Of a DNA stretch of 64,000 bases, positions 1,675 through 49,820 are shown piece by piece. The position numbers and the translations under genes are program-made. A model generated the notes under the pieces. That model was not told the origin of the DNA. It worked only from the letters and a program-made list of their open reading frames with translations, and made no database searches. Each line of letters starts with the position of its first letter. Positions within the stretch are counted from its first letter, which is position 1. Source of the stretch: Alentia gelatinosa (taxonomy: Eukaryota; Annelida; Polychaeta; Phyllodocida; Polynoidae); assembly GCA_950022655.1 (NCBI GenBank), contig OX465583.1:10127798-10191797 (forward strand), given 5' to 3'.

Positions 1675-3372
1675 TTAAGAGCTGCCGTCCAAGTCTTTTA
1701 ACCGATCCTCGCTCCGCTTTTCCTCACTGTTCCTCGCTTGGTCTCCACTGACGTCATTAGACGGTGCTGGGATTTCATTCGGTGCTGGGATGTCATCAGG
1801 ATCTGCGGGGATCCCCCCGGTGACGTCATCAGATGGTGTGTAAGTTGACTGGCGCTTGGCGCAAGCGGATGATACATCCAAACTAGGCTGAGTCTGAAGC
1901 CTAGCCAGGTCCCGCCTGATGTCCATGAGTAGAAGGCCCAACTTATTGTGACCCGCTCCTCTAATTCCGTTGCGTGCCTCGTGCAATGTTAGGCCCCCAC
2001 CCCACTTTCTATCCCTGGTCGCCTCAACTAGCGTTAGGGAATCAGTCTGTAACAGGGCCTCCCTCAAGTCGACATTCTGACGGAACTTTTCGGTCACTAT
2101 CCTTTCAATCACCTGGTTCTCCTGTCGCTCCCAGGCCTGTGTGGGCAGTACTTCACCCGACACCCTCTTGATTTCGTACGGATTATGCAATGAGAGGATG
2201 CGGCTGACTCTGGTCTGGTCCCCGCAAATCTTGGCCTTAGAGGCTGCATAAGCCTGTTCCGCTGATGTGAATGCGCACCCGTCCAAATCTATCCTGCATT
2301 TGTAGAAGTTAGAAAGAGGCGCGTGGGGCCCTTGAAAGAAAACTGTTTTGTCCCTAATAACTGTAAAGGCCTTTTTAAGGGAAACATCATCGGGGAGCTT
2401 GTCAAGATCTTGGGCGCCATAAGTCAACCCTCCAATGACCACCCTGTCGCCACCTTGTACCACACGAGCCTGCCGGCCTAAACTATGTGCGTTATCAACT
2501 ACCGCTCGCAGGGTTGCTCTCTGCTGAGAAACTTCCTCTGGAAGTTCCTCAGAGATCCAAATAGATTTAGTCCCGTTGTGCTTAAGTAGCCTGCTTTTGT
2601 TACGAATAATCTCGATTTTGGCAGATTCATGAAGAAGGGTGATCCTGACAGGCCTGGGTTTCCTTCCCCCAACGTAAACACCGACTCTATGGACCAAATC
2701 TAGCTCCGTGGGGTGTAACCTAACCCCCGTAGCAGCAAAAACATCCAAGGCAGTGTTCCTAAGGTTCTCATACTTCTTTTCGGGTATGCCAGTCAAAATC
2801 AGGGATTTAGAGTTGAGTTTCCTCAACGTCTCCGTATCCTGCGAGCCAGCGGCGAGTGAGACAGACTTCGCCGCCTCCAACTCCCTAATTCGAGCCTCGA
2901 TGTCTGTCACTTTCTTTTGTTGGGAGCCTCTAGCCTTCTCCATCGAAATCCTGAGGTCGTCTCCATCAATATCAACCCTGCCTGTATACTCTTTGAGCAT
3001 TTCTATGTCATTCACTGCAACCTGTAACACCTCCTCAAGCTCTCCACACTTCCTTTCAAACAAGGCAGCCTGTTCCTTGTAATGAGCGTTCTCTGCTTCC
3101 ACTACAATGACTCTTTTAGTAAGGCTAAGCAAACTCTCCTTTACATTCTCTAGGTTGACAGAATGGGATACAACATCGTCTATAGAGTTCTGCCCCCCTT
3201 TTTTCCCCTTCTTCTTACCCTGGGATTTATCCGTGTTGCAACCCTGGGTACTGTCCATAGGCCTATCTGGTGTAGGTAGGCTCGGGAAATCTTCCGAGGC
3301 GATGCCATTCCTGGTTGCCGAGTTCCGAAGCTGTCGACCGTTCATCTCGCCTGTGTTCTCTATAGGCTTCAT
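1675..3372 (-). CDS. Retroelement ORF1-like protein: coiled coil, RNA-binding region, C-terminal NADAR domain
   Basis: An intact 565-residue ORF starting at the ATG at 3372. Residues 1-70 are polar and basic with a lysine-rich patch (about 52-60). About 75-185 is charged and heptad-like, probably a coiled coil. About 185-320 resembles the RRM/C-terminal region of L1-type ORF1 proteins (LILTGIPE, then a DLVHRVG segment). About 344-490 matches the NADAR (YbiA/DUF1768) family: FFQGPHAPLSNFY (345-357), SAEQAYAASKA (370-380), EATRDRKWGGG (450-460) and GHNKLGLLLMDIR (474-486). NADAR proteins cleave N-glycosidic bonds of ADP-ribose-type or riboflavin-pathway nucleotides. The tail after 495 is Asp/Pro-rich and low in complexity. 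The ORF has no stops although its neighbour is frameshifted. It could be a retrotransposon ORF1 or a captured gene; no reverse transcriptase lies in the window. Confidence 0.7.
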   Translation of the reverse strand: MKPIENTGEMNGRQLRNSATRNGIASEDFPSLPTPDRPMDSTQGCNTDKSQGKKKGKKGGQNSIDDVVSHSVNLENVKESLLSLTKRVIVVEAENAHYKEQAALFERKCGELEEVLQVAVNDIEMLKEYTGRVDIDGDDLRISMEKARGSQQKKVTDIEARIRELEAAKSVSLAAGSQDTETLRKLNSKSLILTGIPEKKYENLRNTALDVFAATGVRLHPTELDLVHRVGVYVGGRKPRPVRITLLHESAKIEIIRNKSRLLKHNGTKSIWISEELPEEVSQQRATLRAVVDNAHSLGRQARVVQGGDRVVIGGLTYGAQDLDKLPDDVSLKKAFTVIRDKTVFFQGPHAPLSNFYKCRIDLDGCAFTSAEQAYAASKAKICGDQTRVSRILSLHNPYEIKRVSGEVLPTQAWERQENQVIERIVTEKFRQNVDLREALLQTDSLTLVEATRDRKWGGGLTLHEARNGIRGAGHNKLGLLLMDIRRDLARLQTQPSLDVSSACAKRQSTYTPSDDVTGGIPADPDDIPAPNEIPAPSNDVSGDQARNSEEKRSEDRLKDLDGSS

Positions 3373-3560
3373 CAACCTGGACCAAACCGTCTCTCACCAG
3401 GCACACCAACTTCAAGAAAAAGAACACCAAGTTTCAAACTCGGACGTGTCCTGGGGGGGGGGGGGGGGGGAGTGCAGAAGACCTGATTTTCCTAATACCT
3501 GATGGACGCCGCCATTGTACAACCGGAAGTCTTGATTTCACAAAGTCTCATCAACCAGGC
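3373..3560. repeat. Upstream leader of the NADAR ORF with a poly-G tract
   Basis: Sequence upstream (minus-strand sense) of the NADAR ORF. It holds a G homopolymer of about 18 bases near 3453-3470, read as poly-C in the ORF's orientation. No promoter element is recognised. Confidence 0.4.
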
Positions 3561-7580: not shown

Positions 7581-7584
7581 ATAC

Positions 7585-7785
7585 CTGGAGGCATCATGCT
7601 GCAGTAGCCAGGGGAATGTCCGGAGGCATCATGCTGCCATAGTCAGGGAAATGCCTGCAGGCATCAAGCTGCCATAGCCAGGGGAATGCCTGCAGGCATC
7701 ATGCTGCCATAGCCAGGGGAATGCATGGAAGCATCATGCTGCCATAGCCAGGGGAATGCATGTAAGCATCATGCTGCAATTAAAG
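7585..7785. repeat. Minisatellite of about 35-37 bp, some six copies
   Basis: Tandem units carry GCATCATGCTGCCATAG and CAGGGGAATGC. Similar units with small internal palindromes lie just inside the left ends of the TTAA-flanked elements at 14760 and 57608, so this array probably belongs to the same family. Confidence 0.75.
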
Positions 7786-10396: not shown

Positions 10397-12368
10397 GCAG
10401 TATATCGGACGAGATAAATGCCTTACAGTCTAACCTTTTGTCTCCAGCATACATGCGTCATGTGGAGATAATAATCAATGACAAGGACTGACAAGAGAAC
10501 ATTTCTAATAATGAGCCCAATTCCAAAGCGGCCCATTGATATCAAACTATGGCCGTCATCGTTTGCCACTCTCCCAGCAGATCTTTTATGGTGCTAGCGC
10601 TAATCTCTGCCTCAACCCAATGATGCTATGCGGTGGTTCTCTGAGTATCCCCTAAGGACAGGGGTAACCAGCTAACATTTCGGATTCAAAACAAAGCATC
10701 TGTCAAAAGTTATGAAACTCAAACAACTCATATATTATGAGTTGGGAATTATAGGAATTGTTAGATGAGCTTCACAGACAATTCAGCATTTTCTTGTTCA
10801 GCTTTAAACCACTTTATAATGTGAATCAACATTTGATTAGACTGCCCCTTCTTATGAGTACATGTGTCATGTTGACAAACAAAACCTTGCAACACATTTT
10901 TTTTTTTTATTTTTTTTTTTATTTTTTTTTTTTTTATTCATTCAACATAAGACAGTACAATCACCCTCATTCGGGCGTTCTTCCTTGGGTCGTCTTGGAA
11001 CATATATACAGAAGTACAGGACAGACAAAACAAAATTACAGACAATACAGGACATCACAGGTCATTGGTTGCCACGCCATCATCACCACTATTAACCCTT
11101 ATTGATATAGTACCATGTATCTGCAGTATTTAGATTTGCGGGTGTAAATCGGTTTGTTGTTCAGTACGGATTCGATTGGAGGGGCGGTTTCAGTTGTAAT
11201 ATAGTTTAGTGTCTAGTGTCGGGTCATATGACTCCTTTTTTCTAAACGTTTAGACCTTATTAATCCCCACCGGGTCAGGTAAGTTTGCTGCTATGAACAT
11301 AGATATAAGTATAAGTATAGGTGGGTCATATGACTCCTTTACTGTTCTTAATTTAAATGTGCCATTAAGTGCTTTCCAGTGAAGAAAGTAATCCCTATGC
11401 CTATGTCTGATTTGATATAAAACAAAGTACAGAAATGAGTGTATTTTATTCATTACATAAACATGTGCACCTCTATTTGCAAGTAGAACACAAAATAATA
11501 CCCAAAGTGCTAAGAATGTAGGATATCTTAATAACTGGCGTATGGGCCAGATTTGCGCCCAAACAGGCAGGTTGGTGCAGAGATATATGCAGCCAAAGGA
11601 AGTAGAGCTCAGAATCTCTGCTAGGAGAGCGATCGTTTGCGTCTTACAAATCCCCCTATTGTCGCCCACTTCCGCTTCCGGTCTCGTTAAGGACCTTATT
11701 GTGATTGCTCATACAGCTTCCTTAGACCTGCTCCACTTTTGTCAAGTGAAAGAATTTCCTTTACAATTGGCTCTTTCCATGGCTACGAATGCTATTGAGG
11801 GCTACAGACCAGTTGTAGTCATTCTAAAGATTTCCTAATTTCTCCTGCTGCTCTATAATGTGAAGAATGAAGGGTAATTTGGTGCTTTAGTAGCCTTAAT
11901 GTAATTGCAGTCTTAATTTTACAATATGATAGACTTATGGACAAGGATGAAACCTTATCGTAATGAGCTATGAGTATAAAGTATTTCAGTATTTAAGTAA
12001 GTATATATCAAGTATATTCATGTCTACAATGGATTTGAATCATTACGGTTATGGTACAATGAGCTTTTCAATGAGGACTTTGTATGCCAGCGATGAGAAT
12101 GATCTATCAGGGTAAAAACGAGGAATTAGTATCAAATAGTTTACTCTTGACTGTATATCCTTTTCTGTTTTTTCTCTCTCTTTTTTGTTGAAGCAGTTTT
12201 ATTTGAATCTTCAGTAAATAATCTAGATATCCTTACGCGTGCACTACATTGAAGTACAGGTGCATGTGTGAGGCAAGGCGTCCATTGAAGTACAGTCTCA
12301 TGTATTACAAGGGTTGACCAGATTTACATACTGCTTCTTTCCACCTCTTTCTTTTCTTTTGACTGTAA
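10397..12368. other. Non-coding, with the 3' end of a minus-strand retroposon
   Basis: No gene is recognised and no N-terminal choline transporter exon was found. A T-rich tract at about 10897-10936 followed by TTCATTCAACATAAGACAG and CGGGCGTTCTTCC resembles the minus-strand 3' end and poly-A tail of a SINE or LINE; a related end lies at 42571-42650. Confidence 0.45.
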
Positions 12369-12546
12369 AGTAAAACCCCGCTTAAGGGCCCACCCTCCAC
12401 ACCGAGCAGAATACCCCTTAAGCGGGGTGTCCCTTTAAGCGGGGTTAAAATAAACTGAATAAAGATTTCTGTTCTGAGCAAATTGTCCCCTTAAGCGGGG
12501 TGTCCCCTTAAGCTTCGAGGTGCCCCAGAACCTGGGTTTTACTGTA
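12369..12546. mobile_element. Pogo/Tigger-like MITE
   Basis: The left end reads TAAAACCCCGCTTAAGGG and the right end CCTGGGTTTTACTGTA. Repeated CCCCTTAAGCGGGG blocks lie inside. A longer relative with clear TACAGTAAAACCCC / TTTTACTATA-like ends is at 57553-58235. Ends of the CAGTAAAACC type with TA flanks are typical of pogo/Tigger-class Tc1/mariner elements. The last 68 bases of this copy were carried into the 120-bp tandem duplication that follows. Confidence 0.6.
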
Positions 12547-12718
12547 AATCTTACTTTATATTAATCATTGTTTCGTTTTATTTTTTTCAGCAATGTGGCA
12601 AATTGCCCCCTTAAGCGGGGTGTCCCCTTAAGTTCCGAGGCGCCCCAGAATCTGGGTTTTACTGTAGATCTTGCTCTATATTAATCATTGTTTCGTCTTA
12701 CTCTTTTCAGCCACGTGG
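12479..12718 (+). repeat. 120-bp tandem duplication spanning a splice acceptor
   Basis: Copy 1 is 12479-12598 and copy 2 is 12599-12718, in exact 120-base register. Each copy contains the MITE end, the pyrimidine tract, CAG and the first eight exon bases (CAATGTGG in copy 1, CCACGTGG in copy 2). The second acceptor (exon at 12711) starts the real exon. The copy-1 acceptor, with a longer T tract, would read Ala-Met-Trp and then run to a TAA stop 12 codons later. Confidence 0.9.
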
Positions 12719-12818
12719 GTGGGCGGCGGTTACATTAACGGAACGGCGGAGATGATTTTCTCCTCTGGCCTCATCTGGTGCCAGGCCCCGTTCGGTTACG
12801 CCCTCAGCCTCGTCTTCG
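12711..12818 (+). CDS. SLC5A7: High-affinity choline transporter, exon encoding [12 protein letters not shown]
   Basis: First visible exon of a SLC5A7/CHT1 orthologue, the Na+- and Cl--dependent transporter that returns choline to cholinergic nerve endings for acetylcholine synthesis. Together the seven exons encode about 536 residues; human CHT1 has 580, so only the N-terminal exon of some 58 residues is missing. This 108-base exon reads (A)[16 protein letters not shown] and continues to SLVF(G), matching the most conserved part of the family around the early transmembrane helices. It starts after TTTTCAG (12704-12710) with two bases of an Ala codon and ends before GTGAGT with one base of a Gly codon. 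The acceptor lies in a 120-bp tandem duplication. No upstream exon with a start Met was found between 3.5 and 12.7 kb. Confidence 0.93.
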
Positions 12819-13299
12819 GTGAGTCTCAATCATAACTCAATACGCGAAAATAAGGTTTCATTTTAGGGCGCGTAAACAAACTGATTATGGAAGTTTATTA
12901 CCCACCTATTACGGAGTCTCCATAGGAAACTTATAAGGCACCTGGAATTAGATACTCGGAGATTCTGGCATGTCAGAATCTCCTGCAGGAGATTCCGGAA
13001 AAAAAGTCCCTGCCAAAATGAGGTCAATTCATAATGTACTTCAAAATAAGTTTATTTGATGTTCATTCAATATTACTTAGTTATAATCAGTCACAATAAT
13101 CTCATTTACCATCAGAAATCACTGTCAGAAAAGGTTTTGCAGACCAAAAACCCAGAAAAATAGCGAACTATATTACAGGCGTATGCATACACCGAATTAC
13201 CACCATGCTTAACAATGCTGTGGCGTTATGGTGTAATCTGGAACTTTACGTACTTATTTGGCAATAAAAATGTTATTAATCTTGTAGGTGGGTAATAAA

Positions 13300-13444
13300 C
13301 ACAATAACGACTTGTTTTGTTTACGAGTGTCCGCAATCTCCTCGTAGTTGACGACGTAATATCCTCGCTAATCGCTCGGATATTACTACGCGTCAACTAC
13401 TCGGAGATTACGGTCACTCGTACACAAAACCAGTCGTTATTGTG
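13300..13444. repeat. Foldback hairpin with arms of about 65 bp
   Basis: CACAATAACGAC at 13300 is matched by GTCGTTATTGTG ending at 13444. Most of the sequence between pairs as well, including the TACGAGTG, AATCTCC, GTAGTTGACG and CGTAATATCC blocks and their inverses. The centre is CTCGCTAATCGCTCGG, resembling the loops of the other foldback elements in the window. Confidence 0.8.
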
Positions 13445-13620
13445 TATATATCTGTGCAAATAAAAATACACCAAGGCTGCGCTGCATCTGACACCATACC
13501 ACAGGCTGCAGCATCTGTATCTCATCAAATGGGGTGCAAATGCTGTACTCAGTATACAATGGCTCCACAGTAAATTCACAGTAAAGTCTACAAGGAGACT
13601 TTGACCAATCAGATCAAATT

Positions 13621-13694
13621 GTGATGGTGGATAAAAATACAACATTACCATGATTTTAAAATCATGGTAATGTTGTATTTTTATCCACCATCAC
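13621..13694. repeat. Perfect 74-bp palindrome with no loop
   Basis: Positions 13621-13657 are the exact inverse complement of 13658-13694, with the centre at TTTT|AAAA. There is no spacer and no mismatch. The pairing stops being perfect just outside. Confidence 0.95.
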
Positions 13695-13806
13695 CAAGTA
13701 GTGTGTATAAATAAACCTCTTTAATTTCTTTTGTCGAAATTCCAAGTGTACATGCATTGTCCCTGTTTTGCTATGATTTCTCACCACGTTTTAACGTACT
13801 TTGCAG

Positions 13807-13962
13807 GAGGCCTGTTCTTTGCCAACAAGATGAGAACGGAAGGTTACGTCACCATGCTGGATCCCTTCCAGCGGAAGTACGGAGAGCGCATGGGCGGGTT
13901 ACTCTACATCCCGGCGCTGCTCGGGGAAGTCTTCTGGTCGGCCGCCATCTTGTCCGCGCTCG
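13807..13962 (+). CDS. SLC5A7: Choline transporter exon encoding [21 protein letters not shown]
   Basis: A 156-base exon following TTGCAG. It completes a Gly codon and encodes [20 protein letters not shown], then a [19 protein letters not shown] segment and SAAILSAL, closely matching CHT1 from other animals. It ends before GTCAGT with one base of a Gly codon. Splice phases agree with both neighbours. This stretch includes an intracellular loop and a transmembrane helix of the sodium-symporter fold. Confidence 0.95.
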
Positions 13963-14004
13963 GTCAGTTCTCACCACTTTTTTATTTTTTTTTATTCAAA
14001 TAAC

Positions 14005-14265
14005 TATGCATGTTGTTTTTTTTGTTGTTTTTTTTTGGGCAATTTTTATTAGGGAATATTGTATGTTCACAATCACCGAATTCGGCTACGGCCGTTCTTC
14101 CACTCGGGCCCTTGCCCTGACCCCTCATTCTAATGGCGGATGTTTAACCGAATGGGCGGTGGGTACCATTTTTGTGTAAGTCTTTGGTATGACCCGTCCA
14201 GGGTTTGAACCCACGACCTCCCATGCTCGAGGCGAACACCCCTACCACTTGGCCACCGAGCTTGG
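14005..14265 (-). mobile_element. tRNA-derived SINE
   Basis: On the minus strand the sequence starts with a tRNA-like head near 14262-14195, with box A GGCCAAGTGGTAGGGGTG and box B GGGTTCAAACCC. A non-tRNA body follows and ends in an A-rich tail (T-rich on the plus strand near 14008-14037). The head does not fold as a clean tRNA gene, so it is a retroposon and not a tRNA. Confidence 0.75.
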
Positions 14266-14417
14266 TGAGGTACTTATATAGAACGACCTGACAATGCTGT
14301 ACCAGCTAGAAACCGAGGTGATAATGTACGCTTTGTACGGAACTAGGCGTTAAACTTCAATTCAGGGATTAGTATGAAACATCACATAATGAGTCAGGTT
14401 GACAATAACATTTAAGT

Positions 14418-14755
14418 AGGATTCACACGTAGCGACTCTCGTACCTGAGACTGGTGTACTTCACACTTTTCCCCTAGTCTCAGACAATTTTTGGTTGGTA
14501 CAAAAGTCTCATGGCAAAGTGCTTTAATCAGTCTCAAGGAAAAATGGCAAATTTGATCCACATGGGAGGACACACCTGGTACATAATCTCAGACATAGTC
14601 ACAGTAAGCACTGACCCTGGCACTCAAGTACCTTTGAGGTGAGGTGTGTTACAAACATGCAATCATGCTTGCTGGCCTCCTATTGGCTAGAGCAGGTACT
14701 TAGTCGCAGCAGATCCATTCGTCTCACCAAAATGTCCCTAGAAATTTTAAACCTG
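14418..14755. repeat. Dispersed repeat (relative at 32020-32290)
   Basis: Shares AGGATTCACA(C/T)GTAG, TTTTCCCC(T)AGTCT, GGACAATTTTT, GACACACCTGGTA and GGTACTTAGTC in order with about 32020-32290. Both copies are non-coding. Its right side abuts the TTAA-flanked MITE. Confidence 0.6.
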
Positions 14756-15134
14756 TTAACCCTTTAAGGACGCATGGTGCCTGAAGGCATCACCACGCTA
14801 AAGATGCATGATGCCTGGAGGCATCACCGCACTAAAGACGCATGATGCCTTGAGGCATCATTGTCCCAATATTAAAAAATGTTGAAAAATGTTTTAACAA
14901 AGAAATAATAGAGCAATATTCATCAAATCTTCAGAAAATGTAGATATAATATCATATTTAGTATTTCTATTAAAAAGAAATAAAATATTTATGATTATGT
15001 ATCCTATTGCATGATTACAAACTTTGATATCAGTTTTAACTATTATGTGGCTGTCCTGTAGCCAGACAAACTGCCACCAGTATCCGTCCTAATGGGAGTA
15101 GCTAGACCCCAGGCAGCCGTCCTTAAAGGGTTAA
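14756..15134. mobile_element. piggyBac-like MITE (371 bp, TTAA flanks)
   Basis: Element 14760-15130 begins CCCTTTAAGGACG and ends CGTCCTTAAAGGG, a 13-bp perfect inverted terminal repeat. It is flanked by TTAA at 14756-14759 and 15131-15134. TTAA duplication with CCC-starting ends is the piggyBac signature. Just inside the left end are about three imperfect 36-bp units, each with a GATGCCTGGAGGCATC-like palindrome. No transposase is encoded. Confidence 0.88.
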
Positions 15135-15747
15135 GAATCAAAATCCTATGAGATTCTGTACCATTTTTAGGGGTAAATGTCACCAAGGATTGTAGGAGAA
15201 AAGGGAAATGGAACCCTACAATTAAGACAAAGGAATTGTGTTCGAGTACAGAATCTCAGAAGGATTTGTCTCAAACAAACATCCTGTGAAGCACATGAAT
15301 CCCATCATGTGAATCCTACGTTATTAAAGCATGCTTATACGTACTATATACGTTGCTCATTTTGCATAAAGGTTAGAGTGGTCACAAAGGGTTCCAGAGT
15401 ACTGGAAAGACACTATCCCTTCATTATATGTGTGCTACTCACTCTGCTACTGGCAAAGGAGTAGGGTGCCAGTGATTCAGTATATTAGAAGCTTGCCCAA
15501 CTGACCATGACCAATTACTGGTGCTTGATATATTTGGATACTAGACTGAGGCAGTTGAAGAGATGCTAAGTTGACAGGGTGCAAGTGGGTAACAGAGAAG
15601 GATCCATACACTGAATGTAATCCAAACCTTCCATTTGTTTTTATTTATAATTGCACGCTCATTCATCAATGATGAACATACTATAAATTTGCCCCTAGTT
15701 CTACAAGTGGTAACTGCCACATTGCAGTATCATGATTATTAGAAACC

Positions 15748-16136
15748 AAACGAGAATTAGCCTTGTCAATTTGTATGCCACGATGGGCAGGTTGTGTATT
15801 ACTGCACGAGGCGTTAGCCGAGTGTAGTGAGTAACAGACGTGACAAGAGTGGTATAAACATTGAGAAGGCTAAATCAAGTTTGGTTTCGTATTTATCTTA
15901 CCCCGTATCACCGATATACAGAGAATATTTTGTAATCATCCATGTTAGTAGCGTGTTGATACTCATCAGGATGGCCACATTTATCAATGCTGCCGGATCT
16001 ATTTTCGTTATCTGGTCCCTGATTGGTCCGTTGTTTTTATTCACCTCGGTGCATAAGTAACACTTTATTCAACGCTCCATCAATTACATTGAGTCAATGT
16101 TATACCTATGGCGTTTTTTATCAGGGGTAGGATGAA
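15748..16136. mobile_element. Foldback element with bracket TTATCTTACCCC...GGGGTAGGAT
   Basis: A long imperfect hairpin (about 15748-15890) has loop GAGGCGTTAGCCGAGTG and arms containing AACCAAACGAG, TTAGCCTTGTCAAT and TGTATGCCAC. It is followed by TTATCTTACCCC and, at 16115-16136, CAGGGGTAGGATGAA, preceded by CCTATGGCG. The same hairpin arms occur in the opposite direction at 55983-56150. Confidence 0.65.
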
Positions 16137-16210
16137 TGTGGATTCTGTCCCCTACATTTCTCCTTCTCCAACAAAAGTTTAACCTCTTCTTACTTTTCTT
16201 TATCAAACAG

Positions 16211-16359
16211 GAGCCACGCTCTCGGTCATCATTGACATCGACAACACAACAGCAGTAATTTGCTCAGCATTCATCGCCATCGCTTATACATTGTTTGGTG
16301 GCCTCTACTCGGTCGCTTATACTGATGTCATTCAACTCTTCTGTATCTTTGTTGGTTTG
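16211..16359 (+). CDS. SLC5A7: Choline transporter exon encoding [21 protein letters not shown]
   Basis: A 149-base exon after CAAACAG. It encodes (G)[16 protein letters not shown] and then [20 protein letters not shown] and [10 protein letters not shown], a near match to the CHT1 segment around the central transmembrane helices, where [11 protein letters not shown] is diagnostic of the family. It ends in phase 0 before GTAAGT. Confidence 0.95.
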
Positions 16360-17189
16360 GTAAGTATCGTTTTACTATAGGACTAAAGAAGAAACCAACA
16401 AGTTTTGGTCAAAGTCGCCGTTCTTCACGAGTTTGATGCGGAGTGATGTGAACGAGGCGACAGCCGAGTGAATATCACGTAGCATTCAAACGAGTTGGAG
16501 AACGACTTCTTTGACCAAAACGAGTTGCTTTCTGTATTTATCTCACCCCTGTACACACTTAAAGAATGCACAACACACAGGATATTAACCGTGGAGAACG
16601 AACTGCAATACTTGTAGGGGCATGGAGAACGAGTTCCCCATGTTAAGCCTATGGACATTTATTCCAGGGGTGAGATAAAGACAGGTAATGTTCACTGGGT
16701 GCCTCCATTCTGCCCCCCCGAGTATGTGTTCTTCACTACTGGAGGTAATAAAGTAGGTGCTCTTCACTACTGGAGGTGCAAAAGTAAGTGGGTGATAATA
16801 GGCCACAGTCACAATTCTGGCCAGTTATATGTGTTTAGAGGCTTTCATGTGAGAAAAATACATGTCCTGGGTTTCATCTTTTAGTCAATGTAGAAAAACG
16901 GGGCTTTTCTTCCAACCACGAAATTTTGTGCAAACCTCAAAATCAAAAACTTCATTTTTAGGTCATCCTACCCTGGAATGGGTATAGAGAGACAAGGGAA
17001 TCATGGTAGAACTTTGAAAGCCAGTTGAATTCAATGAGAATAAAGAGCCACAGCACATTTTCTGTCCCCTGAATGGGGGTGCCATCCGCACATGCTAGCT
17101 TTTGACCCAATGTGAAGCCTATGTTTTTTATTAGGGGTAGGATAAAGCATACTGTATCACCTTTATCTGCATCCTTGTTTTCCTTGCAG
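16360..17189 (+). other. Choline transporter intron containing a foldback element
   Basis: From GTAAGT at 16360 to CTTGCAG at 17183-17189. Besides the foldback element at 16384-16679, a lone half-bracket TTAGGGGTAGGATAAAG preceded by GAAGCCTATG ends near 17147. Confidence 0.85.
16384..16679. mobile_element. Foldback element with bracket TTATCTCACCCC...GGGGTGAGATAA
   Basis: Hairpin arms (AACAAGTTTTGGTCAAAGTC / GACTTTGACCAAAACGAGTT type) surround the loop GAGGCGACAGCCGAGTG near 16449. Then come TTATCTCACCCC at 16538 and, at 16644-16679, TTAAGCCTATGG followed by CAGGGGTGAGATAA. The same family recurs inside each 1.6 kb tandem unit (51183-51493, 52807-53117, 54433-54743) and, diverged, at 27955-28263 and 39895-40208. 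Confidence 0.75.
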
Positions 17190-17339
17190 TGGCTGTCTGT
17201 GCCCTTCGCGTTAACCAACCCGATCGTGAGCGATATTAGGGTGAACGCCACAGACTGGGTGGGAGAACTGGAAGTGAAAGACATAGGCGTGTGGCTCGAC
17301 ACTGGCCTCCTGCTCGTCTTCGGCGGTATCCCTTGGCAG
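17190..17339 (+). CDS. SLC5A7: Choline transporter exon encoding WLSVPFALTNPIVSDI
   Basis: A 150-base, phase-0 exon between TTGCAG and GTAAAT. It encodes WLSVPFALTNPIVSDIRVNA, a variable extracellular stretch (TDWVGELEVKD) with an N-linked glycosylation sequon NAT, then WLDTGLLLVFGGIPWQ. The GGIPWQ end is shared with CHT1 from other animals. The next exon continues VYFQRVLSS. Confidence 0.95.
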
Positions 17340-18264
17340 GTAAATACATATTTTTGTTTTTTTTAGTAGTATCTCTCATGGAAATGAGTTGTTCGGATGC
17401 ATCACGCTGCAACATGTATATACAAGGTAGCACACATAGATACAGTGTCATCAAAAAATTTAGTAACATATACATAAATGCTCAACCTTTTTTTTTTTTT
17501 TTTTTTTTTTTTAATGCATCCTGGATATGGCTAGGTCGTACACACGTAAATGTTCTACTATTACGTTTTTTAAGGTCGGATGTTTCAGAGTAATTCTTTA
17601 TAATGTGGAGACCCACTCTCTATTCCCGACATATACACAAGAGTACTAATTTGAGTTGGAAAATAAAAGCCATGGAATTCAAAGATATGCTTTGCACTCA
17701 TATATTAGCTCATTTCTATCTGGCTATTTTCTGCCCAAATTGAAATCCGCTACTATCTCTGATGGTTTTTTTATTATTATCATTATCATTATTATTATTA
17801 TCATCATCATTATTACTATTATTATTATTATTATATATTCGCTAATGGTTCAAATTAGAAAACAGGGCTATCTAACATAAGTTCAAGTTGATATTCAAAG
17901 TCCCATGAGTATTACATGTAATAGTGATAAATGTGGATAGCAACATTAAAAACAACAATCATGGACAGTAGTGACAATTATGTATTGAGATTGGCGAATG
18001 GTATTAGCAGTCGAGACTTAGATCACATTCGTCACATATCCACATGAATTATCGACAATGTATTTATACTTAACGTTCAACCAATCCAATGGCTAACAAT
18101 ATGATAACATAATTGTTAGGTACATGGATGAAGACCTGGATTTTCAGGTACTATGAAATAAGCAGGAAAGTTTCAATATGATAAGTTTAAACATTTTAGG
18201 TTAAGCTACCCTAATACATGTGTAAACCTATGGATAATTGTTTTTAATAAAATATTATTATTTT
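17340..18264 (+). other. First part of a choline transporter intron; simple repeats
   Basis: It contains a T tract (about 17483-17511), an ATT/ATC microsatellite (about 17768-17835) and otherwise unique AT-rich sequence. The rest of this intron (18265-19797) is the 72-bp minisatellite. Confidence 0.8.
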
Positions 18265-19797
18265 GAAGGTGTATTTCCATTTTAGTGGTGTTTGACCGTG
18301 TGTAAGTGTCTCAAATCAATGAGCTGTTTCTCCGTTGAAGGTGTATTTCCATTTTAGTGGTGTTTGACCGTGTGTAAGTGTCTCAAATCAATGAGCTGTT
18401 TCTCCGTTGAAGGTGTATTTCCATTTTAGTGGTGTTTGACCGTGTGTAAGTGTCTTAAATCAATGAGCTGTTTATCCGTTTTAGGTGTATTTCCGTTTTA
18501 GTGTTGTTTGACCATGTGTATGTGTCTAAAATCAATGAGCTGTTTCTCCGTTGAAGGTGTATTTCCATTTTAGTGGTGTTTGACCATGTGTATGTGTCTC
18601 AAATCAATGAGCTGTTTCTCCGTTGAAGGTGTATTTCCATTTTAGTGGTGTTTGACCATGTGCAAGTGTCTCAAATCAATGAGCTGTTTCTCCGATGAAG
18701 GTGTATTTCCGTTTTAGTGGTGTTTGACCGTGTGTAAGTGTCTCAAGTCAATGAACTGTTTCTCCGTTTAAGGTGTATTTCCGTTTTAGTGTTGTTTGAC
18801 TAGGGGTAAGTGTCTCAAATCAATGAGCTGTTTCTCCGTTGAAGGTATATTTCCATTTTAGTAGTGTTTGACCGTGTGTAAGTGTCTCAAATCAATGAGC
18901 TGTTTCTCCGTTTAAGGTGTATTTCCGTTTTAGTGTTGTTTGACTAGGGGTAAGTGTCTCAAATCAATGAGCTGTTTCTCCGTTGAAGGTATATTTCCAT
19001 TTTAGTAGTGTTTGACTAGGTGTAAGTGTCTCAAATCAATGAGCTGTTTCTCCGTTGAAGGTGTATTTCCGTTTTAGTGGTGTTTGACCAAGTGTAAGTG
19101 TCTCAAATCAATCATCTGTTTCTCCGTTGAAGGTGTATTTCCGTTTTAGTGGTGTTTGACCGTGTGTAAGTGTCTCAAATCAATCATCTGATTCTCTATT
19201 TAAGGTGTATTTTGTTTTAAGGTGTATTTCCGTTTTAGTGGTGTTTGACCGTGTGTAAGTGTCTCAAATCAATGAGCTGTTTCTCCGTTGAAGGTGTATT
19301 TCCGTTTTAGTGTTGTTTGACCATGTGTATGTGTCTCAAATCAATGAGCTGTTTCTCCGTTGAAGGTGTATTTCCGTTTTAGTGGTGTTTGACCGTGTGT
19401 AAGTGTCTCAAATCAATGAGCTGTTTCTCCGTTGAAGGTGTATTTCCGTTTTAGTGGTGTTTGACCGTGTGTAAGTGTCTCAAATCAATGAGCTGTTTCT
19501 CCGTTGAAGGTGTATTTCCGTTTTAGTGGTGTTTGACCGTGTGTAAGTGTCTCAAATCAATGAGCTGTTTCTCCGTTGAAGGTGTATTTCCGTTTTAGTG
19601 GTGTTTGACCGTGTGTAAGTGTCTCAAATCAATGAGCTGTTTCTCCGTTGAAGGTGTATTTCCGTTTTAGTGGTGTTTGACCGTGTGTAAGTGTCTCAAA
19701 TCAATGAGCTGTTTCTCCGTTGAAGGTGTATTTCCGTTTTAGTGGTGTTTGACCAGTTATAAGTGTCTCAAATCAATGATCTGATTCTCTATTTAAG
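18265..19797 (+). repeat. 72-bp minisatellite, about 21 copies, each carrying a splice-acceptor/exon-start copy
   Basis: Starts at 18265 and 18337 set the 72-base period, and 1533 bases hold 21 units plus a partial unit near 19205-19220. Each unit contains AAGGTGTATTTCC, which is the sequence across the real intron/exon junction at 19797|19798 (AAG|GTGTATTTCC), then GTTTTAGTGGTGTTTGACC and TGTGTAAGTGTCTC. The array therefore runs up to the exon and its last unit is the functional acceptor. The native acceptor context GATTCTCTATTTAAG occurs again at 19189-19204. Splicing to an inner copy would encode VYFRFSGV and then a TGA stop. Most units also hold a GTAAGT donor-like hexamer. Confidence 0.93.
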
Positions 19798-19927
19798 GTG
19801 TATTTCCAACGCGTGCTGTCGTCCAAGTCGGCGGTGCGTGCTCAGCTGCTGTCCTACATCGCCGCGGGGGGCTGTATCATCATGGCCGTGCCCGCCGTCC
19901 TCATTGGTGCTATCGCCAGGAACGCAG
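19798..19927 (+). CDS. SLC5A7: Choline transporter exon encoding [18 protein letters not shown]
   Basis: A 130-base exon encoding [20 protein letters not shown] and then [20 protein letters not shown], ending with one base of an Asp codon before GTAATG. It is a clear CHT1 match (YFQRVLSS and AIPAILIGAI-like segments). Its acceptor, TCTCTATTTAAG, has a weak pyrimidine tract and is the last of about 21 near-identical copies in the array upstream. Confidence 0.95.
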
Positions 19928-20723
19928 GTAATGCTTCTGCTGATTCAGAGAATTTATTATCCATCGTAAACAAAGACCCCATTGAAAATGTACCGGGCCA
20001 CGACCCATCATATAAAACCTGTCAGATACCATATTCAAATCTGTTGCCCCTATTGTTTTATTACCCATCATATACAAAGACACCATTGAAAATGTATGGG
20101 GACTCAGTAAACCATGACTCATTATACAAAACCTGTCAGATACCATAACCATGGTATACGGATTCAAATCCGTGGTGAACAGCTTCAGAGCTATGGTATA
20201 TGGGAAAATAGTCCCCTTGTGCGATAGAGCAAAGAAAAACATGAAATATTGTAGATTTTTTAGTTCTCCTAAAAGCCCATTTCCTTTGGCCGTCACCGAT
20301 CTACAGTCAGGAACCACCGATGAACCGATGATCGGTTTGCCAAAAGGTTTAGGCCTGGCGTCCAACTACTACGATAGAAATTTAGACCTACCAATATGGC
20401 ACCGATACAAAAAGCAAATATCAGAGACATATCGGGAAGGTGCAAAATCGTAGACACATGTCTAGACATGCCAATCCACCACGCATCGTGAGGGGTTTTT
20501 TTTCAGTGCTTAATCCCAGAAACGTGGTCAACTGCCCCGATATTAGGTGACCTTCCGACGCGATTTTGATTTTCATCGGGAGGTGCATCGAAGACCATAT
20601 CGGAGCAATATCGTAGTAGGTGGACGCCGGGCCTTATGAAAATAAAAGTATGACCTTTATATACTCCTTCACCTGATGACCTTGACTCTAACCCGTGTTT
20701 TCCCTCTCCATCTCGGCTCACAG
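19928..20723 (+). other. Choline transporter intron with two or three MITE copies
   Basis: From GTAATG to CTCACAG at 20717-20723. About 19965-20240 belongs to a dispersed, partly palindromic family (AAACCTGTCAGATACCATA, GGTATAC, GGAAAATAGTCCC) also seen at about 30550-31080, 41600-41720 and 61815-61860. About 20255-20340 resembles the left part of the element at 21626-21820. The second PIF/Harbinger-like MITE follows. Confidence 0.75.
20349..20636. mobile_element. PIF/Harbinger-like MITE, copy 2 (282 bp, TTA target duplication)
   Basis: Element 20352-20633 begins GGCCTGGCGTCCAACTACTACG and ends with CGTAGTAGGTGGACGCCGGGCC, flanked by TTA at 20349-20351 and 20634-20636. It is colinear with copy 1 at 10097-10393; copy 1 carries a short extra AGTAGGTGATATTAGGTGA-type repeat near its right side. 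Confidence 0.85.
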
Positions 20724-20938
20724 ACTGGAACGAGACGGAGTGGGGGCGCCCCGACATCCCTCCAGATGACCAAAAGCTTATTTTACCGATGGTCATGCAG
20801 CACTTGTGTCCCGCCTGGGTGTCCTTCATTGGTCTGGGCGCCGTGTCGGCCGCCGTCATGTCGTCCGCAGACTCCTCTGTACTCTCAGCCAGCTCCATGT
20901 TCGCCCGCAACGTGTACAAACTCATATTCAGACAAAAG
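20724..20938 (+). CDS. SLC5A7: Choline transporter exon encoding [19 protein letters not shown]
   Basis: A 215-base exon encoding (D)[58 protein letters not shown] and [29 protein letters not shown] is one of the best-conserved CHT1 segments. NET is a potential N-glycosylation sequon in the extracellular loop. The exon ends in phase 0 at AAAAG|GTGAGC. Its last 27 bases plus the donor are the unit of the tandem array that follows. Confidence 0.95.
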
Positions 20939-21603
20939 GTGAGCATTATATACGTGTACAAACTCATATTCAGACAAAAGGTGAGCATTATATACAACAT
21001 GTACAAACTCATATTCAGACAAAAGGTGAGCATTATATATGTGTACAAACTCATATTCAGACAAAAGGTGAGCACTATATACGTGTACAAACTCATATTC
21101 AGAGAAAAGGTGAGCATTATATACACCATGTACAAACTCATATTCAGACAAAAGGTGAGCCGTATATATATGTGTACAAATTTATATTCAGACAAAAGGT
21201 GAGTATTATATATGTGTACAAACTCATATTCAGACAAAAGGTAAGCAATATATACAACGTGTACAAACTCATATTCAGACAAAAGGTAAGCAGTATATAT
21301 ACGTGTAGAAACTCATATTCAGATGAAAGGTAAGCAATATATACGTGTACAAACTCATATTCAGACAAAAGGTAAGCATTATATACAACGTGTACAAACT
21401 CATATTCAGACAAAAGGTGAGCATTATATATACAATGTATACAAACTCATATTCAGACAAAAGGTGAGCATTATATATATAATGTGTACAAACTCATATT
21501 CAAACAAAAGGTGAGCAGTATATATATGTAACGTGTACAAACTCACATTCAGACAAAAAGTAAGCATTATATACGTGTACAAAACTCATATTCAGACAAA
21601 AGA
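20912..21603 (+). repeat. Tandem array of about 16 exon-end/splice-donor units
   Basis: Units of 42-49 bp start at 20912, 20954, 20999, 21041, 21083, 21128, 21172, 21214, 21259, 21303, 21345, 21390, 21437, 21484, 21533 and 21575. Each repeats the last 27 exon bases (encoding VYKLIFRQK) followed by GTGAGC, GTGAGT or GTAAGC and a short ATATA-rich spacer. Unit 1 is the real exon end. Steps from unit 1 to unit 6 are 42, 45, 42, 42 and 45, all multiples of three, and the frame stays open, so donors 2-6 would add 14- or 15-residue repeats. A 44-base step between units 6 and 7 breaks the frame; a stop occurs at 21200-21202. Confidence 0.93.
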
Positions 21604-21621
21604 TCAGTATGGAATCAGAGC

Positions 21622-21824
21622 TTAAGGCCCCTGTCCATTGGCCAACGAAAACGGTGTAGATCTCTTGAGTTCTCCTAAAAGCCCATTTATATTTTGCTTC
21701 AGCTGTGCTAAAGGTTCGTCAGTGGTTCCTGACTGTAGCGCGTTGACAGGCAATGGAAAGAAGCTATTAGGAGAACTAAAAAAAATCAACAACGTTTTTG
21801 TCGGTCAATGGAAACGGGCCTTAA
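21622..21824. mobile_element. Short TIR element with TTAA flanks (195 bp)
   Basis: Element 21626-21820 begins GGCCCCTGTCCATTGGCCAACG and ends with the diverged inverse, CGGTCAATGGAAACGGGCC. Both flanks are TTAA (21622-21625, 21821-21824), though a 3-bp TWA duplication cannot be excluded. Inner inverted blocks GTTCTCCTAAAAGC / TATTAGGAGAAC are also present. The left inner part recurs near 20255-20340. Confidence 0.7.
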
Positions 21825-22164
21825 GTTTCCCTCGTATACAAAGCCTGAATTAAAAATGTTCAAGTTTAAATTCCATGTTAATGTCTTGTCTTCTCTCTGA
21901 AATCCTGGCCGCTGATTGGTCAATTGCATATGACGCATATATATCATCTCGCATTGACTCCACCACGGTCATGTTGTAGTATTGTCACTTTACCGGGGTG
22001 ATTGTTATGTTGTGTTTTTTCAATGTTTTAGGGGTTTTTAACTATATTTATTGACCATAAATATGACATTCAATGTACATACACATTGATCTTCCATATC
22101 ATTGGTCTCTTTATTATTCAGGAAAAAAATAACAGATCTTCCACTGCTATAATGGTTGAATAAT

Positions 22165-22446
22165 ATGAAGAGACGTCACGAGTTTGAGTCTGAGTTTATT
22201 TATGCCACGCATTTTGTTGGCTCTATAATTTCACGAGTCGAAGACAAGTGACATTAAGGAGCCAACAAGATGAGTGGCATAAATAAGCTCAAACTCAAAC
22301 AAGTGGCGTCTAGATTTTATCCTACCCCATTTCCATATTTTCTCAGTATCAGAAAGTAGTGGCATAAACAACACTTTATGTCACACCCGTGACATAAACA
22401 AATCCCATGTTAAGCCTATGGCGTTTTTTATTAGGGGTAGGATAAA
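22165..22446. mobile_element. Foldback element with bracket TTATCCTACCCC...GGGGTAGGATAA
   Basis: Hairpin arms contain CACGAGTTTGAGTCTGAG, TTTATTTATGCCAC and TTTTGTTGGCTC and their inverses, around loop CACGAGTCGAAGACAAGTG. The bracket starts TTATCCTACCCC at 22318 and ends TTAGGGGTAGGATAAA at 22446, with TTAAGCCTATGGCG just before. An inverted relative lies at 48450-48730. Confidence 0.75.
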
Positions 22447-22478
22447 GGTTATTCCTATGGCTAAACTAGTACCAGGGA

Positions 22479-22735
22479 CCTGTTTCCCTAGTTTTGTGAC
22501 ATGTCTAGATGATGTCTGTGACACCATACAGACAGATTGGGGTTCACTAACTTTGTGATAACACAAGTAGGCTTGAGTTTCGCTTGTTGCGAACGGTACA
22601 TCGCCAACTGTGACACGACATGTGACATTTGATGTGACATGCGTTATGCGTTATGTGACTTTCTTTTGTCCGTTCTTGCTTGCACTGTTGGTGCCGCTTC
22701 TCATGTCTGTCTAGCATTTTTGTCATGAAACTAGT
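22479..22735. mobile_element. TIR element, diverged copy (relative at 25078-25347)
   Basis: Starts GGGACCTGTTTCCCTAG and ends near TCATGAAACTAGTGAGA, with an internal CATGTCTAGATG and a palindromic ACACCATACAGACA segment. It aligns by eye along its length with 25078-25347, whose ends are better preserved. Confidence 0.6.
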
Positions 22736-22808
22736 GAGATAAAATCCTGTATTGTATTATTTTCTGACGATGAACTAAATGAACCTCTCTGTATTTCACC
22801 GTTCACAG

Positions 22809-23510
22809 GCATCGGAACGCGAAGTGATCTGGGTGATGCGCGTGGGAATATTCGGCGTGGGAATCCTGGCTACGGTGATGGGCATCACCATCACCACCAT
22901 CTACGGCCTGTGGTACCTGTGTGCCGACCTCGTCTATGTCATCCTCTTCCCGCAACTGGTGTCGGTGGTGCACCTCCGAGACACGAACACTTACGGCTCT
23001 CTGGCCGGCTACGTTATAGGCTTGGCCTTCCGGATGATGGGAGGCGAGCCGCTCATATTCCTCCCCGCCATTATCAAGTACCCGGGCTACGATGAGGAGA
23101 ACAACATCCAAGAGTTCCCCTTCAAGACCCTGTGCATGCTTGTGAGCTTTTCCTTCATCCTGATCGCCTCCTACGCAACCAAGTATATCTTCGAGAACGG
23201 ACTCTTACCCAAGCACTATGATATCTTCATGTGCGTGGTAAATATTCCCGATGAGGTGATCGCCCTCAAGGAACACTCCAATGGCCACCATGAGGATGAT
23301 GTGGAGAGTGAGTTAACGTCGCTTAATGCTAAGAAGACAGAGTCCAACGGTCAAATCAACCCCGCACTCAAGTTCTCCCAGAAGGAGCTCCTAGAGCCTG
23401 GACCTCCAGGGCAGGGGCATGAGAACAAGGGACTGGAGGTCACTCCTACCATGGAGGAACCCCCTCCGAGGCCCCCAGAGTATAACAGTGATTACACGAC
23501 TGGATTGTAA
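22809..23510 (+). CDS. SLC5A7: Choline transporter, last coding exon
   Basis: A 702-base exon encoding the last 233 residues and a TAA stop. It reads [20 protein letters not shown], then a [20 protein letters not shown] block, [20 protein letters not shown] and [12 protein letters not shown], all typical of the C-terminal transmembrane helices of CHT1. After the last helix (about [14 protein letters not shown]) comes a cytoplasmic tail of about 100 residues rich in acidic and polar residues. It contains SQKELLEPG and ends [22 protein letters not shown] fits a PPxY ligand for Nedd4-type WW domains; vertebrate CHT1 is reported to be controlled by Nedd4-2. The last three residues, T-G-L, fit a class I PDZ ligand. 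Both tail motifs are sequence matches only. AATAAA at 23936 is a possible polyadenylation signal. Confidence 0.95.
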
Positions 23511-33855: not shown

Positions 33856-34701
33856 TTAAGAGGTATTGTTGAGGGACATAATCAGGGCTTGATTCACAGC
33901 AGAGGCATCAGTGTCCTTGATGTATGTCCGGTGGGCGTTAGACTTCCAGCCCCCGTACCGCTGTATGGCGAGTTCCGGCATACCGGCCTGGAATGCCTGC
34001 GTCGCGGCAGCCTTCCGGAGGCTGTGGAGGGTATATGTAGGGGGCTGGTTTGCCGCCTGGAGGAGTGACTTCCATTCCCTGGACAGTGTCCTGGTCGTGA
34101 GGATCTCTCCGTTCTCCAGGCTGAGGAATGGAGCCGTAGGGTCGGCCGTAGGTGCGGCCGCGATCATGGTCCGGATGGCCCGTACCGGGCAGGAGGACGG
34201 TTCGGGGGAGGCTCGTATCACGACTGTCTTTTCCTCCCCCGCCCTTTGCATGTTCTTCGCGGCTTTGACCCTTATCGATGCTTGAGTGGGCGTGACGACC
34301 ACGTCTCGGCGTGACAGGAGTCGCGCCGGGTCGTACTTTGCCGTAGACGGTGGGGCCACTTCGCTTTGCCGCAGGGCGGCAAAGTAGATAATCAGAACCG
34401 CGGCCCTCAGTCCGATGTGCATCGGGGAGTCCGTGAGGGCCGTGAGGGCCGCTCTGAAGACGTCCATTGGGACCGGAGGCTTGACGTTGGGATGGTACTC
34501 CTTGTTCCGTCTCATTGCATCCAGTGCGCGCCTCACCCGGAAGTCCTCGGTTGCCGCGACATCGCCGCCCGTGAGCCAGAGGTGCAACCGGACGTGCGAC
34601 AGCTGATTCGCGACCGTCGCAGGCGAGGGGGCGTGGCCCGCGACGTACTCTAGGTACGCCGTGGTGAAGGACACTGTGGGTTTCTGGGGGTCGGCGCCCA
34701 T
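33856..34701 (-). CDS. Retrotransposon tyrosine recombinase
   Basis: A 281-residue ORF from the ATG at 34701; the open frame extends upstream to about 34850 and there adds a SAM-like N-terminal segment (ANQRSAVSTYLAFCRR), so the true protein is probably longer. The catalytic set of the tyrosine recombinase family is present in order: Arg111 (ALRQSEV), Lys near 149, His226-x-x-Arg229 (HSLRKAAAT), Trp252 (YGGWKS) and nucleophile Tyr260 (HRTYIKD). It would integrate the circular DNA copy by site-specific-type recombination in place of a DDE integrase. It overlaps the RT/RNase H ORF in another frame, as is usual in DIRS-like elements. No stop breaks it. Confidence 0.88.
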   Translation of the reverse strand: MGADPQKPTVSFTTAYLEYVAGHAPSPATVANQLSHVRLHLWLTGGDVAATEDFRVRRALDAMRRNKEYHPNVKPPVPMDVFRAALTALTDSPMHIGLRAAVLIIYFAALRQSEVAPPSTAKYDPARLLSRRDVVVTPTQASIRVKAAKNMQRAGEEKTVVIRASPEPSSCPVRAIRTMIAAAPTADPTAPFLSLENGEILTTRTLSREWKSLLQAANQPPTYTLHSLRKAAATQAFQAGMPELAIQRYGGWKSNAHRTYIKDTDASAVNQALIMSLNNTS

Positions 34702-36040
34702 CCTCCGGCAAAAGGCTAGGTAGGTCGAGACGGCACTCCGCTGGTTCGCGACCGTTCCGGGGGCACGCGCCTCGCACTGCCGCGCAGATGCCCTCGTCTG
34801 GAGTGATCGTAGCGCCGGATCTGCAGGCGAGACGGAGAACGGGGTAGAAAGAAGTGTGTGTACATGGGATCACTTCAACGAGAGAATGATAATTTATATA
34901 ATTAACGGCCGTGATGAAGTCTCTCGAGGTCAGGTGGGCTCGGCTGAGGGCGTCTGCTACGGTGTTAAGCACCCCCGGAACGTGCGTGTACATGAACTCC
35001 ACCTGGAGTCTGGCTTGTACCGTCCAGGCCTGGCGGGCACACTCGGCGAGGACCGGATTCCTGGCACGCCCCAACCTGAGTGCCTGGACGGTTCCCATGT
35101 TATCGCAATACACTTCCACACGAGTGCCTCGGTCGCGGTCCGTGAGGAAAGTGCACATTGCGTAGACCGTATTTAGGGCCTCAAGCTCGGCGATACAGTT
35201 CACGGGGTCTACCAAGGGGCAGACCCTTCCGCAGTAGTAGTATCTCCCATCCGTGCCCCCTACTCCGCTGAGGCACGCGTCCACGATGATACATCTGGTA
35301 GGAGGCCCTCGAGGTATCAGGGCATGGCCGTTCCATCCCTCGGCGAACCGCAGGAACCACTGGAGGTCCTGCCGCATCTCCGAGTTGACGTTGATGTAGT
35401 ATCCGGCCATGCCCCGGAGGGCCTCGAGCAATTTGCTGACGAACGGTCGGGCTGGCCGTATACATTTTGCCACGTGTAGGACCCGACCGAGGACCGACTG
35501 CAGTTGTCGTTTCGTCAGCGAGCGTTTGGTTGAGACAGCCCTCACGTGCTCCCGCACTTCCTGTAGTTTGTCCCGCGGGATACTGAGGGACATATCCACG
35601 GAGTTTATGACTATCCCTAGCCACGTCACAACCCGGCTCGGGGGCTGTGCCTTTTCCCGGGCCTCGGGGAGGCCCAGCTCCCTGAACAGCTCTCGCGCTG
35701 TCTCGAAGTCGGCGGCCGCCTTGTCGGCCGACGGGGAGAGGATAATAAGGTCGTCCAGGTACATCGCGGCATCGACCCCCTTCTGGTCGAGGATCTTGAC
35801 GATGGCATCTGCTACACACTGCATGTGGTAGGAGGAGGCGCGGGCACCGAACGGCATGGCCGTATCGCAGTAGTACCCCTCCCCCCACGCGAAGCAGAGC
35901 AGAGGCCAGTCGAGGGGGTCGCACCGGAAGTTCTTATACGCCCGCGCGATGTCGATCGTGGACATATAACTCCCCGGCCCCGAGGCCACCAGGCGACCAT
36001 CGACGGTCGGGAGGCCATGTTCTCTCTCTTCACCGTACAC
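33938..36040 (-). CDS. Retrotransposon reverse transcriptase and RNase H (main part)
   Basis: An open frame of about 700 codons. The first 210 residues are the palm and thumb of a reverse transcriptase, with DIARAY (about 30), MPFGARAS (62-69) and catalytic YLDD (94-97). RNase H follows, with the acidic set Asp254 (VDACLSG), Glu285 or 287 (AELEAL), Asp313 (CDNMGT) and Asp363 (VADALSR). Real coding probably ends near 34840; further on this frame is an arginine-rich shadow of the recombinase ORF. The frame's N-terminal RT part lies upstream (36047-36832) in the same frame, separated by one TAA. Confidence 0.85.
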   Translation of the reverse strand: MYGEEREHGLPTVDGRLVASGPGSYMSTIDIARAYKNFRCDPLDWPLLCFAWGEGYYCDTAMPFGARASSYHMQCVADAIVKILDQKGVDAAMYLDDLIILSPSADKAAADFETARELFRELGLPEAREKAQPPSRVVTWLGIVINSVDMSLSIPRDKLQEVREHVRAVSTKRSLTKRQLQSVLGRVLHVAKCIRPARPFVSKLLEALRGMAGYYINVNSEMRQDLQWFLRFAEGWNGHALIPRGPPTRCIIVDACLSGVGGTDGRYYYCGRVCPLVDPVNCIAELEALNTVYAMCTFLTDRDRGTRVEVYCDNMGTVQALRLGRARNPVLAECARQAWTVQARLQVEFMYTHVPGVLNTVADALSRAHLTSRDFITAVNYINYHSLVEVIPCTHTSFYPVLRLACRSGATITPDEGICAAVRGACPRNGREPAECRLDLPSLLPEDGRRPPETHSVLHHGVPRVRRGPRPLACDGRESAVARPVAPLAHGRRCRGNRGLPGEARTGCNETEQGVPSQRQASGPNGRLQSGPHGPHGLPDAHRTEGRGSDYLLCRPAAKRSGPTVYGKVRPGATPVTPRRGRHAHSSIDKGQSREEHAKGGGGKDSRDTSLPRTVLLPGTGHPDHDRGRTYGRPYGSIPQPGERRDPHDQDTVQGMEVTPPGGKPAPYIYPPQPPEGCRDAGIPGRYAGTRHTAVRGLEV

Positions 36041-36046
36041 AGAGTT

Positions 36047-48730: not shown

Positions 48731-48784
48731 TAGTATATGCATAACAGTTGGGTCTATAAACTATGGACACCTAAATGATTATAT

Positions 48785-49679: not shown

Positions 49680-49820
49680 TTATCTCACCCCTGCCTTTTT
49701 ACTCCATAGACTTTACATTGAGAACTGGTATCCAACGCCCGTTGAGTATTTAGAAATACTCAATGGGGGATTATGTCACAAAGGTTAACCCATTAATCAA
49801 TGTGAATGTTGAGATAAATT
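49680..49820. repeat. Bracket element without a hairpin
   Basis: TTATCTCACCCCTG at 49680 and a closing GTTGAGATAAAT near 49810, with CCATAGACTTTACATTG inside. A similar hairpin-less copy lies at about 42137-42276 in duplication copy B, and a short one at 50343-50404. Confidence 0.55.

Follow-up and report, generated by a model that had tools for sequence, protein, structure and literature searches.

The window, by which is meant the whole stretch of 64,000 nucleotides that was analysed, contains on its plus strand a gene for a high-affinity choline transporter (SLC5A7/CHT). Seven exons, numbered 2 to 8, and six introns were modelled between 12711 and 23510, in line with a match to human CHT1. 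The exons (exon 2, 12711-12818; exon 3, 13807-13962; exon 4, 16211-16359; exon 5, 17190-17339; exon 6, 19798-19927; exon 7, 20724-20938; exon 8, 22809-23510) join into one clean frame of 535 amino acids, and all of the introns are GT-AG. Residues 1-447 of the predicted protein matched human CHT1 (8j74) with an E-value of 5e-182, which upholds the choline transporter assignment made in an earlier note on this DNA. A tblastn search for exon 1, which would encode about 58 residues, using the starts of four relatives, returned nothing convincing within the window.

A protein search found 4658 relatives of the transporter, of which 120 were listed; these include many invertebrate transporters, the top two by E-value coming from Capitella (69% identity) and Lamellibrachia (74%), and Branchiostoma was absent among their named rows. 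Placement was assessed in two protein trees, one of 47 rows (45 of the 120 listed relatives, the window protein and the human protein) and one of 24 rows, neither of which holds a lancelet sequence. In the 47-row, lancelet-free tree, the window transporter joined four named annelids and two other rows with a support of 99/87, and the same grouping plus one further row received 97/95. The 24-row tree, likewise sampled without lancelets, joined it to the same four annelids and two rows with a support of 95/91. In these trees the transporter was placed beside the named annelids rather than within them, and a position outside the annelid set was not firmly rejected in the 24-row tree (AU p 0.068). 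Human and gar, the only named deuterostomes in the trees, both lie on long branches. From these comparisons, a fair statement would be that the affinity of the transporter is annelid or close to the annelids. A lancelet source, considered at first in view of the lancelet repeats discussed below, is made unlikely by the protein search and by these lancelet-free trees.

Several other elements share the window. On the minus strand, a 572-amino-acid open frame (1675-3393) carries a NADAR domain (PF08719), and its four relatives, at no more than 32% identity, all carry NADAR, as if it had been taken up by a mobile element. Also on the minus strand, open frames at 33856-37935 contain a reverse transcriptase and a phage-integrase-family (tyrosine recombinase) domain; the protein of this element, which is presumably a retroelement of the DIRS or Ngaro type, has relatives of up to 58% identity among the 120 listed of 200. 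Three short arrays whose 34-35 bp units carry a GGCATCA or GGCATTCC core (7584-7777 and 14765-14860, identified by TRF, and 57615-57768, identified by eye) resemble the insides of dispersed elements, and a 63-bp array of 10 copies (43827-44467) is open on its minus strand for 161 codons from stop to stop. A second gene, with five exons in one open frame (46474-63589), which we take to be GOLM1/CASC4-like, was used for comparison.

Three of the 13 transporter junctions in view lie within tandem repeats that span the junction. The earlier note had claimed that three splice junctions of this one gene had each become a tandem repeat, namely the acceptors at 12711 and 19798 and the donor at 20939; TRF found all three arrays, and together with the gene model it places them at these sites. 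The acceptor of exon 2 (12710|12711) lies in a plus-strand duplication at 12478-12718 (120 bp x 2.0 by TRF), whose two copies are 89% identical and each end in 8 exon bases. The unit junction reads CAG|CC and is without AG|GT. The 5' part of the 120-bp unit belongs to a short dispersed repeat at about 12366-12546 (ends set by eye) that has CCCCTTAAGCGGGG motifs and inverted ends and to which, by blastn, stretches at 57551-57583, 58102-58239, and 58660-58735 are related.

The acceptor of exon 6 (19797|19798) lies in a plus-strand array at 18263-19807, reported by TRF as 72 bp and multiples, that consists of 21 units, 20 of 72 bp and one of 89 bp (19133-19221), plus the true exon start. The 72-bp unit takes in the first 10 bases of exon 6 (GTGTATTTCC). 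The array holds 23 boundary copies once the start of exon 6 itself and a partial copy within the 89-bp unit are included, and all of them read AG|GT (22 by script and one, at which the script was one base off, by eye). Unit comparison revealed that the 89-bp unit has the stretch CTGATTCTCTATTTAAG in common with the exon-adjacent unit (19726-19797), and that five consecutive 72-bp units (19366-19725) are identical, probably representing the most recent expansion.

At the donor of exon 7 (20938|20939), a plus-strand array runs from 20908/20910 to 21602 (42 bp x 15.7 and multiples by TRF) and repeats the exon end in 16 copies spaced 42-48 bp apart, with 29-31 exon bases in each unit. The steps were parsed as 42, 45, 42, 42, 45, 44, 42, 45, 44, 42, 45, 47, 47, 48, and 44, the last two of which may err by one since copy 15 was parsed one base off. 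The donor reads AAG|GT in 14 of the 16 copies and AAA|GT in copy 15, while copy 16 lacks GT, so that GT is kept by 15 copies (14 by script, with copy 15 read one base off). Of the exon bases per unit claimed earlier, 8, 10, and 27, the first two held and the third measured 29-31. The earlier statement that the arrays begin or finish precisely at the junctions did not hold, since they extend 8-31 bases into the exons. The claim that all periods are multiples of three proved roughly right and is only approximate, because one unit has 89 bp and the donor array has irregular steps that include 44 and 47.

Enrichment of boundary copies was assessed at 21 junctions of the two genes, each compared over at most 1500 bases of its own intron with 100 approximate dinucleotide shuffles. 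Exactly the three array junctions (3/21) beat 100 of 100 shuffles, with scores of 61, 87, and 130 against shuffle maxima of 27, 29, and 27. The remaining 18 junctions showed no excess of boundary copies, 3 to 99 of 100 shuffles being equally good, and none of the eight junctions of the second gene had such copies. It is unlikely that minisatellites are simply common in these introns and that three of them happened onto the junctions of a gene that drew attention because of them, a reading for which the wealth of tandem repeats in the window (41 TRF rows, many overlapping), the picking of one gene among many, and the absence of boundary copies from the neighbouring gene all speak. Against it, when arrays 241, 1545, and 691 bp long were placed at random, with up to 30 exon bases allowed to be covered, the chance of lying across a junction was only about 2-9% per array depending on the span: 0.047, 0.085, and 0.067 within 12478-23510; 0.041, 0.090, and 0.060 with a start at 11000; and 0.019, 0.016, and 0.022 with a start at base 1. 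Furthermore, all three distinct TRF arrays scoring above 300 in the transporter gene sit at junctions. The product of the chances for 12478-23510 is about 3e-4, and because the gene was chosen for its striking look, the true surprise is smaller than this figure suggests. Three long arrays at junctions nevertheless exceed random placement, and tolerance alone may therefore not explain their location.

Variation among the units bears both on how the arrays turn over and on whether they are real. Mean unit identity in the two long arrays is 0.914 (72-bp array) and 0.859 (donor array). In the unit alignments of these arrays, 25 of 51 columns are variable in one and 40 of 89 in the other, gap columns included. 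These differences among most units, along with the 89% identity of the 120-bp copies, make it very improbable that the arrays were inflated or invented by the assembler. The five identical 72-bp units and a three-fold 1.6-kb repeat found by blastn at 50779-55654 are nonetheless the kind of place where assemblers fail, and the draft BflGb6 mirage of the lancelet, a minisatellite lying across an exon-intron boundary, was judged to be aberrantly assembled, according to the excerpted text of that report (PMC3087553). The internal variation, larger TRF periods of two or three units (216, 87, and 131), and the run of five identical units look like what ordinary minisatellite turnover would produce. 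In the 72-bp array, the exon-adjacent unit is diverged, with an identity of 0.858 against a range of 0.897-0.947 in 19 of the other units and 0.721 in the 89-bp unit, and the intron-side edge unit is undiverged (0.943); of the 15 units compared in the donor array, the one next to the exon has diverged least (0.896). Because divergence is seen at one edge only and is lowest next to the exon in the donor array, edge divergence is not a general feature. Unit identity showed no fall with distance in either long array (permutation p 0.31 and 0.73), a flat relationship that a plain neighbour-copying model does not predict.

Sequence kinship among the arrays was not observed. Their units are unrelated to one another, and blastn matched the 72-bp and 42/45-bp units nowhere else in the window. 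A mobile element as the common source of all three was considered and is unsupported: the units are dissimilar, two of them have no further match in the window, and a dispersed repeat contributes to the 120-bp unit alone. Where a shared mechanism or tolerance had been suggested for the three arrays, tolerance is the best-supported idea and a shared sequence found no backing.

The possible use of the extra copies in splicing differs between the arrays. In-frame stops occur within nine codons downstream of the upstream acceptors of the 72-bp array in 18 of 18 tested (of 22), and the upstream acceptor of the 120-bp repeat, read by eye, also meets a stop. Within the 72-bp array (18263-19797), 19 of the 21 units also carry a donor-like GTAAGT or GTATGT, which would make each of them a potential small cryptic exon containing a stop. 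The absence of the inner GTAAGT from the exon-adjacent 72-bp unit was considered as possibly meaningful and dropped, as one other unit lacks it too. At the exon-7 donor, the first six copies keep the full frame, adding 0, 14, 29, 43, 57, and 72 residues, and the frame is lost from copy 7 onward. Hence, the multiple-of-three spacing, which had been pointed out earlier, carries little weight for the 72-bp array given its 18 of 18 early stops, whereas in the donor array it leaves five extra donors in frame. Copies 8-11 read GTAAGC and copy 7 reads GTGAGT; the exon-side donor is not the strongest by eye, and with inner donors that look equal or better, position rather than strength would presumably have to decide.

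The in-frame donors raise the question of whether the donor array is in use, with alternative donors adding 14, 29, 43, 57, or 72 residues in frame to one loop of the protein to give a set of transporter lengths, perhaps through AG|GT sites doubling as donor and acceptor, the situation described for human UBC. We regard this as quite unlikely. All of donors 1-6 maintain a full-length frame, the exon-6 acceptor array offers AG|GT at 23 sites, and the AAG|GT of 14 of the 16 donors is the core of dual-specific splice sites as described in the accessible part of the relevant study (PMC10809524); there is also a parallel in the lancelet PGBD5 gene, where, in the portion of the report consulted, a gene prediction takes 108-bp repeats as an exon without RNA support (PMC3902484). 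However, the frame is gone from copy 7 on, chance alone would leave one frame of a 42-bp unit open in an estimated 1 in 6 cases or so, the 18 tested upstream sites of the acceptor array all lead to early stops, and alignment of human CHT1 and four relatives showed no insert at the position of the donor array. A broader proposal, that boundary minisatellites are general in animals and provide reserve splice sites here, with five in-frame donors lengthening a loop by steps of 14-15 residues and repeat number both tuning the isoforms and protecting against a lost main donor, is improbable.

The recurrence of AG|GT at most unit junctions of the two long arrays also recalls tandem genomic duplication, which partial texts describe as a recognised route of intron gain (PMC3443670) and which, in the form of lancelet mirages, has been proposed as a source of new introns (PMC3087553). 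Under such an origin, duplication of an AGGT-bearing exon piece would have made the introns themselves, and by coordinates the 72-bp array does take up 1535 of the 2458 bases between exons 5 and 6. The donor array occupies only 664 of the 1870 bases of the intron after exon 7, though, both introns hold other sequence besides, and the exon-2 unit reads CAG|CC instead of AG|GT, leaving this origin a very slim chance.

The preferred reading, to which we assign a probability of roughly 0.7, is that these are three independent boundary minisatellites of the type called mirages in lancelets, grown across the junctions and tolerated there. The anatomy of the arrays is a matter of direct observation; their history, their tolerance, and splicing at the exon-side copy are inferred. 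A short tandem duplication would first have covered an intron end with the exon start next to it or, at the donor, an exon end with the intron start, after which two of the three arrays would have grown by slippage or unequal exchange. The extra copies would fall inside the intron, and because the copy against the exon body keeps a complete splice signal, such a duplication would be nearly harmless, allowing arrays to accumulate through tolerance. In keeping with this, joining the exons at the exon-side copies yields a transporter that aligns without gaps at the array junctions to its animal relatives. The arrays are thus likely to be tolerated rather than functional. This reading is favoured by the exon bases within junction-spanning units, by the restriction of copies to 3 of the 21 junctions, by the dissimilarity of the three units, by the signs of minisatellite turnover, by the diverged exon-adjacent 72-bp unit, and by the published mirages; divergence at one edge only, the lack of decay in identity with distance, clustering at junctions beyond random placement, and an exon-side donor that by eye is not the strongest count against it.

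Related structures have been described in humans and earthworms, here as given in the portions of the literature that were consulted. Variable internal tandem repeats of human duplicated genes are likewise minisatellites at exon-intron boundaries, and these change transcripts and can make new introns (PMC2812944). Dual-specific splice sites are enriched in human tandem-repeat genes, and the AGGT arrays of UBC resemble the long transporter arrays in having AG|GT at most unit junctions; however, UBC units are coding and variably spliced, while the 72-bp units carry in-frame stops (PMC10809524). In the intron-18 VNTR of ABCA7, as in the donor array, each unit starts with a donor dinucleotide and the array adjoins exons, but the ABCA7 unit has 25 bp and is out of frame, and its length correlates with exon skipping in people (PMC5954066), unlike the transporter array, which is in frame for the first copies. 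Intron gain by tandem genomic duplication shares with these arrays a tandem duplication carrying AGGT (PMC3443670). Earthworm metallothionein genes contain first-intron minisatellites, and another metallothionein clone has tandem exon duplications and inversions that are absent from its transcript (PMC12783039); these repeats may be kin to the transporter arrays. The annelid literature surveyed, mostly titles and the starts of abstracts, contained no report of a junction-spanning array.

The closest counterparts are the mirages of lancelets, known here from partial texts of two reports. The name, credited to work on Adh3, denotes minisatellites across exon-intron boundaries, which occur in Adh3, the globins BflGb6 and BflGb9, and troponin C (PMC3087553, PMC3902484). 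Splicing is apparently undisturbed in the globins (PMC3087553), and published mirages in general are reported or suggested not to disturb the mRNA (PMC3087553, PMC3902484). PGBD5, which has been likened to mirages, holds two such repeats, and its gene prediction uses part of one (two 108-bp units) as an exon that the authors omit (PMC3902484). The transporter arrays resemble these cases in that each unit joins an intron end to an exon start or vice versa, AG or GT is preserved in many copies (in both long arrays here), and unit lengths vary, those reported from lancelets ranging from 10 to 160 bp. Units that cross an exon-intron boundary and include exon bases (8, 10, and 29-31) are found at 3 of the 21 junctions. 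In BflGb6, the edge copies escape homogenisation (PMC3087553), which is matched by the exon-adjacent 72-bp unit (0.858) and not by the intron edge of that array or the exon edge of the donor array. The transporter further differs in having three arrays in one gene, compared with two in PGBD5, with 16-23 boundary copies in the long ones, and in grouping with annelids by protein, the lancelet cases being cephalochordate.

The view that such junction arrays are unusual is accordingly only partly correct, as they form a known class in lancelets, PGBD5 has two, and human duplicated genes have boundary repeats, at least in the excerpts consulted; three junction-spanning arrays in one gene, in a transporter that groups with annelids, may be new. 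A transporter with 23 AG|GT acceptor copies and 15 GT donors in a row offers a natural test of spliceosome choice, namely of how one is picked among nearly equal neighbouring sites. Should the animal be an annelid, the range of junction-spanning minisatellites would extend well beyond the lancelets from which they have been described. The transporter arrays are a confirmed and well-formed example of this known type of structure.
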